In this document: one piece after another, positions 6,378-42,253 of the stretch | How the letters are laid out: every line of letters starts with the position of its first letter | Position numbering within the stretch: the first letter of the stretch is position 1 | Assembly (NCBI GenBank): GCA_019744775.1 | Contig: JAIETZ010000001.1 | Span: forward strand, 434,001-498,000 | Direction of reading: 5' to 3' | Length of the DNA: 64,000 bases | Source of the DNA: Candidatus Obscuribacterales bacterium | GTDB taxonomy: Bacteria > Cyanobacteriota > Vampirovibrionia > Obscuribacterales > Obscuribacteraceae | The notes under the pieces: model-generated | The model's input: the letters and a program-made list of their open reading frames with translations, nothing else | Databases searched by the model: none | Told to the model about the DNA's origin: nothing | Position numbers and translations under genes: made by a program

Positions 6378-6568
6378 GGTAAAAACTCCCTTTGTATTTA
6401 CTAACGCTCCGGCTTAAACACAAGCCTTCGCGGCTTCTTGCTAAACACAAGAACTTCAAAATTAAAGATATCGTAGTAGGGAACGTTTTCCCTTATCAAA
6501 AGTCAACCTTCTTACAACTCGGCGACCGTGTTAGAATCAAGCCGTTACTAGAAGGTTAAGGTTGCTTC

Positions 6569-10444: not shown

Positions 10445-10542
10445 CGCTACAGCGAGAGCGAAAGATTGCGAGGAGCAATCTGAAGCGGAGCGTGTATAGC
10501 CAGTAGCAAGCGAAGGTGGAGCGCAGCGTAACCGAAGCGTTA
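10445..10542 (+). repeat. Dispersed structured element, copy A (not followed by a gene)
   Basis: One of four related copies. The core hairpin is AGATTGC, loop GAGGA, GCAATCT (10463-10481). Downstream blocks AGCGGAGCGTG, TAGCCAGTAGCAAGCGAAGG and CCGAAGCGTTA align with the copies at 34045 and 37055. Here the terminal GGAG is GAAG and no start codon follows. Its last three bases TTA are the stop codon of the opposing minus-strand gene, so the element ends exactly at that gene. Confidence 0.7.
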
Positions 10543-11355: not shown

Positions 11356-11455
11356 ATTTAACGCTCCACTTCCGCTTTTTCGGTAGATCCGACGACACAT
11401 TTAGTGTCGTCTCCTTACTGCGCATTGCTCCTCGCAACGCTTGCTGCGCTTCTGC
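11356..11455 (-). repeat. Dispersed structured element, copy D (leader of the SAM adenosyltransferase-like gene)
   Basis: On the minus strand: hairpin GCGTTGC, loop GAGGA, GCAATGC (11440-11422), then AAGGA, then a second perfect 8-bp hairpin GACGACAC, loop TAAAT, GTGTCGTC (11411-11391), then AAGCGGAAGTGGAGCGTTAAAT directly before the ATG at 11355. GGAG is 8 nt from the ATG, as in copies B and C. The second hairpin is shared with copy B only. Confidence 0.75.
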
Positions 11456-11577
11456 AATTACTAATTACCCTTTTGTGTCTTATCTCACACGAAGTTTCCG
11501 ATAATTGATTAGCAAAACAGCAAAATTCTTGATACGTCTAAAAAAGCGGGTAAAAGTATAGGTAAGGAGACCCGTGC

Positions 11578-28946: not shown

Positions 28947-28973
28947 GTAGGGGCGCATTGCATGCGCCCGCAC
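28947..28973. repeat. GC-rich palindromic repeat, copy 1
   Basis: GTAGGGGCGCATTGCATGCGCCC: stem GGGCGCA, loop TTGCA, TGCGCCC at 28951-28969, flanked by GTAG and GCAC. It lies 22 bases after the TrbI-like gene. The same core stem occurs at 33552, 35688 and 42226. Confidence 0.8.
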
Positions 28974-33551: not shown

Positions 33552-33570
33552 GGGCGCATCGCATGCGCCC
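33552..33570. repeat. GC-rich palindromic repeat, copy 2
   Basis: Stem GGGCGCA, loop TCGCA, TGCGCCC, lying in the 65-base gap between exbB and exbD. Its position inside an operon makes a role in transcript stability or differential expression possible. Confidence 0.8.
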
Positions 33571-34028: not shown

Positions 34029-34044
34029 GGACTTCATCATGAAG

Positions 34045-34169
34045 CAACAGCGAGAATGGAGCATTGCGAGGAGCAATGCAAGGAGACGACACTAAATGTG
34101 TCGTCGGGGGAGCGTGGGTAGCCGGAAGGCAAGCAAAGGCACTGGCTCTGCAGCGCCGGAGCGCTAAAT
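34045..34169 (+). repeat. Dispersed structured element, copy B (leader of aroE)
   Basis: Longest copy. Core hairpin GCATTGC, loop GAGGA, GCAATGC (34061-34079), then AAGGA, then hairpin GACGACAC, loop TAAAT, GTGTCGTC (34085-34105), then GGGGGAGCGTGGGTAGCCGG and a tail CAGCGCCGGAGCGCTAAAT. GGAG at 34158-34161 is 8 nt before the aroE ATG. The tail and core align with copy C; the second hairpin aligns with copy D. Confidence 0.78.
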
Positions 34170-35687: not shown

Positions 35688-35706
35688 GGGCGCATGCAAT
35701 GCGCCC
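35688..35706. repeat. GC-rich palindromic repeat, copy 3
   Basis: Stem GGGCGCA, loop TGCAA, TGCGCCC followed by CTAC, in the convergent gap between the cvpA-like gene and the SCP2 gene. In opposite orientation to copy 1 when the flanking GTAG is used as polarity. Confidence 0.8.
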
Positions 35707-36938: not shown

Positions 36939-37054
36939 ACACTTTTGTCACCTACTGAGGTGCCCTCTCCTGCTGACTTCCATGCTATGATCGAGTGCTC
37001 TAAAAGGCTTGCGGTGACCGGCTTCTATGATGTTCCACTACAAAATGACCACAA

Positions 37055-37157
37055 GCAATAGCGGAGCAAAGAATTGCGATAGAGCAATTCGCAGCGAAGC
37101 GTGGTAGAGCTGGATAGCTAGCGAAGACGAGGGCTCGCCATCGCCGGAGCGTTAAGA
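37055..37157 (+). repeat. Dispersed structured element, copy C (leader of ftsE)
   Basis: Core hairpin GAATTGC, loop GATAGA, GCAATTC (37071-37090). Blocks AGCGAAGCGTGGTAGAGCTGG, TAGCTAGCGAAGACGAGGG and CATCGCCGGAGCGTTAAGA follow. GGAG at 37146-37149 is 8 nt before the ftsE ATG. The stem differs from copies A, B and D at two positions on each side but remains fully paired. Confidence 0.78.
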
Positions 37158-42225: not shown

Positions 42226-42253
42226 GTAGGGGCACATCGAAATGCGCCCCTAC
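42226..42253. repeat. GC-rich palindromic repeat, copy 4
   Basis: GTAGGGGCACAT, loop CGAA, ATGCGCCCCTAC: 12-bp stem with one A-C mismatch. It lies between the TadG-like gene and the cyclophilin gene, 24 bases past the cyclophilin stop on the minus strand. Confidence 0.78.

Follow-up and report, generated by a model that had tools for sequence, protein, structure and literature searches.

The gene ftsE of a Candidatus Obscuribacterales bacterium is preceded by a small hairpin. Similar hairpins are found at other places in the 64,000 nt of DNA which we have analysed (hereafter the window), with stems that differ from each other and nevertheless pair. It had been proposed from four of them that an RNA structure is maintained. 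The locus raises three questions: whether a fold is indeed maintained, which strand folds, and what kind of sequence has become the leader of a core division gene.

A family of dispersed repeats

The hairpin 5' of ftsE belongs to copy C of an intergenic, non-coding repeat of about 100 nt, which has at least 107 clear copies in this genome. When copy C was used as the query of a blastn-type search, the own genome gave 24 places, the better ones being mostly clear relatives. Fourteen of these matches, together with copies A and C, form a seed set of 16 copies; it was aligned with MAFFT without structure and gave a covariance model, R1. With this model, and with scoring limited to 150 candidates, we have found at least 112 places in the own genome, at least 107 of them with E<1e-6. 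The genome probably contains few more copies than these 107–112, since only 15 strong ones are present in about 378 kb around the window. Two congeners have 75 and 119 R1 matches. The dispersed element thus belongs to the family around Candidatus Obscuribacter, whose richest genera have about 80 to 120 matches in each genome.

The window itself contains four copies (A, B, C and D) and one relic detected by R1 (Table 1). At the site of the relic two full copies of the element are found in the congener G002. Head-to-tail arrays with a spacing of about 105–108 nt are also found, in G028:C13:57361-57664 and G010:C67:4932-5236. No curated covariance model of Rfam matches the window at gathering scores, and none matches two of the copies with E up to 10. 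A search of the literature found no account of repeats in Obscuribacter or Melainabacteria.

A second covariance model (R2), built from copies in other genera, detects the element in 19 out of 50 genomes of the family, distributed in 12 of its 24 genera. R2 recovers the own copies with E about 1e-7, so that the copies in different genera form one family. A phylum-wide search with R2 in 292 genomes, in each of which only 15 candidates were scored, gave no match outside the own genome, which is weak evidence of absence. Collections of plasmids and phages gave no match of the element. The entry L135 (SBAT01000263.1) is titled Chloroflexi bacterium; its FtsX is 98% identical to that of the own Obscuribacterales genome, so it is probably a mislabelled assembly.

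Table 1. Features of the repeat and its surroundings, with positions counted from the first nucleotide of the window
Feature	Position	Strand	Remarks
Relic of the element, mainly its 3' end GCCGGAGCGTTA	6402–6468	-	R1 13.4 bits, E 0.041
Copy A	10446–10542	+	R1 88.9 bits
Copy A, stem AGATTGC/GCAATCT	10463–10481	+	Loop GAGGA
Copy D	11359–11456	-	R1 39.3 bits; nested hairpin in place of domain 2
Copy D, stem GCGTTGC/GCAATGC	11440–11422	-	Third pair G-U; loop GAGGA
Copy B	34044–34166	+	R1 55.3 bits; before aroE; nested hairpin 34085–34105
Copy B, stem GCATTGC/GCAATGC	34061–34079	+	Loop GAGGA
Nested hairpin GACGACAC-TAAAT-GTGTCGTC	34085–34105	+	Inside copy B; pattern search
Promoter-like block CTGCTGACTTCCATGCTATGATCG (TGACTnC..TGnTATSAT)	36970–36993	+	By-eye comparison of ftsE upstream regions
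Copy C	37055–37154	+	R1 90.1 bits, window E 3.2e-25; ftsE leader
Copy C, stem GAATTGC/GCAATTC	37071–37090	+	Loop GATAGA
Copy C, domain 1	37061–37100	+	7-bp stem and inner 2-bp helix covary
Domain 1, outermost helix GC	37061–62 with 37099–100	+	Followed by 3x3 loop GGA/GAA
Domain 1, inner helix GC	37066–67 with 37094–95	+	Followed by 3x3 loop AAA/GCA
Domain 1, 7-bp stem	37071–77 with 37084–90	+	Loop GATAGA 37078–83
Copy C, domain 2 hairpin AGCTGGATAGCT	37108–37119	+	Closing pair C-G / T-A covaries
Copy C, domain 3	37121–37150	+	Pairs G-C/A-T/T-A and T-A/C-G covary; apical part variable
Domain 3, outer helix GC/GC	37121–22 with 37149–50	+	Followed by 3x3 loop GAA/GGA 37123–25 / 37146–48
Domain 3, inner helix	37126–29 with 37142–45	+	A37127.C37144 mismatch
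GGAG within the 3' end CGGAGCGTTA of the element	37146–37149	+	Shine-Dalgarno position, 8 nt before ftsE ATG at 37158

Fold of the repeat

The fold is a ladder of short helices, split by conserved 3x3 purine loops (GAA/GGA), with a small hairpin in the middle. Our analysis shows that in domain 1 a first ladder, in which 2-bp helices alternate with 3x3 purine loops, is capped by a hairpin of 7–8 bp (hairpin 1). It also shows that domain 1 is followed in this genus by a small hairpin with a GGAN loop (hairpin 2, which is domain 2), and that domain 3 is a second ladder formed by GC, GAA/GGA and GGY/RCC. Loops of the 3x3 GGA/AAG type are runs of sheared purine pairs and are unusually stable. For the inner 2-bp helix of domain 1 we have counted 105 copies with GC/GC, 25 with AC/GT, 5 with AT/AT and 2 with GT/AC; the outer helix of domain 3 is GC/GC in 156 copies and GT/AC in 5. 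The GAA/GGA loop of domain 3 is present in 140 out of 174 copies, and the loop of hairpin 2 is GGA or GGAN in most of them. For the outermost helix of domain 1 covariation is not significant in this genus, and the helix is paired in 12 out of 12 copies from other genera. The mismatch found in domain 3 of copy C is private to this genome: G001 and G002 have G-C in its place.

Unconstrained folding reproduces the ladder (z -2.9 for L025, -3.7 for L056 and -5.5 for L078); the z-scores are large for several copies from other genera. The folding energies of copies A and C taken singly are not unusual (z -0.25 for copy C), so that the evidence for structure in copy C is comparative.

The stems of the four window copies, with outer pairs which differ and always pair, are present as the original prediction had described them, and so are their loops (Table 1). 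The same prediction placed the variation in the outer two pairs. Throughout the genome variation is found in six of the seven pairs, and the third one is mostly non-canonical (G.G in 81, G.T in 52 and A-T in 36 of 172 copies).

In the structure-free alignment of 16 copies we have found 33 cells changed on both sides of a helix, compared with 11.5 in shuffles, and 94.2% of paired cells, compared with 82.0%. Larger alignments were fitted to the structure of the model. With this procedure 97 own copies have 223 double-changed cells versus 65, spread over 11 of the 13 pairs, and 95.2% of paired cells versus 78.6%, in comparison with shuffles which, like all our covariation controls, model the relatedness of copies incompletely. 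When the partners are slid by 1–3 columns, only 23–43% of the cells are paired. A set of 174 non-identical copies from three species gives 1032 Watson-Crick cells, 1 G-T and 1 mismatch for the six pairs of hairpin 1 other than the third; all twelve pairs outside that third pair give 2000 Watson-Crick, 19 G-T, 3 A-C and 18 other cells. We have looked in this set for stems broken as often as kept and found no such pattern.

A ranking of all column pairs by covariation, with average-product correction and no structure supplied, begins with pairs which belong to the helices: 18-34, 21-31, 20-32, 74-88, 57-62 and 13-40. They are followed by 22-30, 23-29, 17-35, 72-90 and 73-89 and, further down, by 14-39 and 68-94. 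A few adjacent pairs which do not belong to helices (e.g. 18-33, 20-33) are interspersed, as subfamilies would give. In a separate alignment of twelve copies from three other genera, 98.4% of the cells are paired and six pairs have double changes, some of them in 2-bp helices beyond the 3x3 loops: the same fold is compensated there using different letters. These comparisons show that the sense strand of the element has a maintained fold, in which stems change by compensation while purine loops and linkers stay.

The strand which folds is indicated by the weak pairs. With the third pair of hairpin 1 left aside, G-T exceeds A-C by 19:3 (two-sided binomial about 0.0009); the ratio is 71:3 when this pair is included. 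In a cruciform, where both strands fold, a ratio of about 1:1 would be expected, so the excess points to folding of the sense strand. The copies in codirectional gaps are also biased, with sense:antisense numbers of 46:11 in the own genome (p 3e-6) and 34:13 in the congeners (p 0.003). Both signals suggest that the sense strand matters, probably as RNA; they would fit either RNA or one specific single strand of DNA, and the strand bias could partly reflect selection against disturbing neighbours. From them we infer that one strand is probably recognised and that the element is probably transcribed. Coordinated change had been taken as a direct sign of RNA structure: the maintained structure is confirmed, whereas RNA is its likely form, with single-stranded DNA as the alternative.

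Covariation may also appear with little or no selection. Template switching in hairpins copies one arm onto the other and can create and mend stems (PMC8794818), in which case the repeat would be inert. The single G-T found next to 1032 Watson-Crick cells in hairpin 1 agrees with this process, as G-U intermediates are nearly absent, which favours a one-step origin of the changes; the nested hairpin described below also has perfect stems of several sequences. Template switching would however heal the 3x3 loops and the G.G pairs, which are kept in a large number of copies (140 out of 174 and 81, respectively). Such unhealed positions, together with the covariation of 2-bp helices beyond the loops, argue for selection on the fold, and the 19:3 excess of G-T over A-C also stands against an inert repeat. 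We consider it unlikely that template switching alone explains the compensated stems, although it may act as the supplier of changes with selection as a filter.

Location in the genome and the ftsE leader

With genes defined by simple ORF calls, at most 1 out of 97 own copies is located within a gene. Copies are found in all types of gaps, convergent ones included, and the genes behind them are unrelated. Their 3' ends cluster 3–4 nt before start codons on the same strand: 27 out of 124 end 1–5 nt before such a start and more than half within 25 nt. The 5' end is often found directly after a stop codon. In 40 of the 164 placed copies the element is faced by a next gene on the opposite strand, and the stop of this gene frequently overlaps with the terminal TTA of the element (11 out of 40 at -4 to 0). 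The 3' end CGGAGCGTTA would carry a Shine-Dalgarno sequence and its opposite strand would read as a TAA stop, so that the element would be tolerated when inserted immediately upstream of a start codon or immediately past a stop.

The relevant Shine-Dalgarno-like part of the element is the GGAG at its 3' end, not the loop of the hairpin. The loop GAGGA had been put forward as a mimic of the ribosome site. It is a minority form, present in 35 copies versus 64 with GATGA and many with other loops, and these counts rule out a conserved mimicry.

The promoter-like block of Table 1 is kept upstream of ftsE in many genera of the family, and the leader behind it varies. Among the genera examined, it is only in this one that the element lies between the block and the ATG of ftsE. 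The leader copy is found in G001 with 2 differences and in G002 in the same place, diverged. The element is probably transcribed there and would supply the ribosome site of ftsE, so that a regulatory role in this gene may be proposed as a possibility.

A cis-acting RNA regulator of the following gene, here ftsE, in which domain 3 would cover the Shine-Dalgarno sequence and control translation, would explain the sense bias and the 3' ends near start codons. It would also agree with the location of GGAG in the 3' strand of the internal loop of domain 3 and with a leader position kept in three species. As an explanation of the repeat we find it quite improbable: the copies precede unrelated genes, those which face an opposite-strand gene are about as numerous as one in four (40/164), and the ftsE leaders of the other genera examined have no element. 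Furthermore the predicted openness of GGAG goes from 0.07 to 0.96 between copies, with no consistent occlusion of the Shine-Dalgarno sequence.

Turnover and nested hairpins

Fifty-five of the 82 congener copies were placeable on the own sequence examined. After removal of duplicates, 26 of the orthologous sites are occupied by an own copy with the same orientation and 6 by one with the opposite orientation, and 21 have no own element; the own loci compared were mostly picked for holding an element, and these counts of sites are not rates. The element turns over, since orthologous sites of close relatives differ in its presence and orientation. The six gaps with opposite orientation in G000 and G002 (L182, L184, L188, L192, L180 and L212) may correspond to inversion or to independent insertion into the same gaps. 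At the junctions the intergenic DNA flanking the copies is often different as well, so that loss and replacement cannot be told apart from insertion there.

The 26 shared sites have 21 helix cells which differ on both sides and still pair, while 6 single changes break a pair and 5 give G-T. In the comparison with G001 we have found two double paired changes in L097/L230 and one in L098/L222; a few apparent stem breaks there were traced to nested insertions.

The nested module GGAGACGACACTAAATGTGTCGTCG (GACGACACTAAATGTGTCGTC) is found about 20 times in the genome, mainly within the main element or beside it. It replaces or interrupts domains of the element; in copy D it is found at G000:C1:445390-445414. 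Its stems are perfect and compensated between copies: GACGAC, GACGAG, GAGGAC, GAAGAC and others. A second dispersed palindrome, GGGCGCAT-nnn-ATGCGCCC, is found in the window at positions 28951-28969, 33552-33570, 35688-35706 and 42230-42249, the last one imperfect. A similar palindrome lies beside the element copy L002 and also upstream of ftsE in another genus (L167).

Origin of the repeat

A miniature non-coding repeat of mobile type, with a maintained sense-strand fold, in the family of Candidatus Obscuribacter is the best explanation of these features, and we hold it with moderate confidence. Copy number, turnover and lineage restriction lead us to propose a mobile spread. It would be non-autonomous, with the folded single strand recognised by some machinery.

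A search of the own genome for candidate mobilisers detected neither Y1_Tnp (PF01797) nor RVT_1 (PF00078). Shared 4-7-mers across the ends of the element, as expected from target-site duplication, show no excess, and the ends are not complementary (5' consensus GCAAyAGCG, 3' consensus GAGCGTTA). We have rejected a MITE of a DDE transposon, having found no terminal inverted repeats and no target-site duplication, and also a retroposon spread by reverse transcription, PF00078 being absent from the own genome.

An element of the REP/REPIN type mobilised by a RAYT (Y1) transposase is very improbable. REPINs are also small, intergenic and present in many copies without target duplication (PMC3116915), and the folded single strand is a further similarity. 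However their architecture differs, Y1_Tnp is absent from the four genomes with the most copies (G000, G001, G002 and G010, in assemblies 77–98% complete), and across 50 genomes the presence of Y1_Tnp does not track that of the element. A binding site for a global RNA-binding protein such as CsrA, with GGA in loops, would agree with the loop of hairpin 2 and is extremely improbable, as the own genome has no CsrA and many copies have other loops.

The mobile-type repeat may be given a more precise form, which we regard as rather doubtful: selection and mobilisation, the latter by an undescribed machinery, would both act on the element in the form of a folded RNA or single strand. It would combine a ladder in which 2-bp helices alternate with 3x3 purine loops, more than 100 diverging copies kept foldable by compensation and a ribosome site of its own.

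Many dispersed bacterial repeats are near-identical, and selection on their fold is inseparable from recent spread. Here divergent copies with compensated helices and non-canonical loops provide a natural data set on selection and template switching as sources of compensation. The element points to an undescribed machinery in a little-studied lineage, sister to the photosynthetic cyanobacteria, and the case of ftsE indicates that through an insertion a core division gene can acquire both a leader and a ribosome site which are new.

Comparison with known systems

The small dispersed or MITE-like repeats of cyanobacteria are dispersed and non-coding, and one may be nested in another. The element resembles them by being non-coding and by nesting, with the TAAAT hairpin inside it. 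It differs by its greater length and structural complexity, and no terminal inverted repeats or target duplications were seen. Structured RNA leaders, such as riboswitches and thermometers, share with it a covarying fold upstream of a start codon and a ribosome site inside. The element differs from them by its more than 100 copies, which precede unrelated genes or lie in convergent gaps, and by the absence of an Rfam match.

Closer in appearance are the hairpin-forming repeats of mitochondria, namely the double-hairpin elements of Allomyces and the repetitive hairpin-forming elements of sponges (PMC2800124). They also have 2–3 tandem hairpins in intergenic positions, are restricted to lineages, differ in presence between relatives and have no known enzyme. 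In contrast, the element is found in a bacterial chromosome and has a ladder with purine loops. Furthermore the sponge elements conserve stems and vary in their loops (PMC2800124), whereas the present element varies in its stems and keeps its loops and linkers.

REP sequences and REPINs (PMC3116915; TnpA-REP, PMC8266576) are similarly short, intergenic, non-coding and present in high copy number, with a folded single strand and turnover. The element differs from them by the absence of RAYT from the genomes rich in it, by a ladder of three domains with 3x3 purine loops and by its compensated stems. A REPIN is an inverted doublet of REP sequences in one long hairpin, while the element has separate covarying domains. 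It is a lineage-restricted structured repeat, near in kind to REPINs and to hairpin-forming mobile repeats, and by the features tested a member of neither group.
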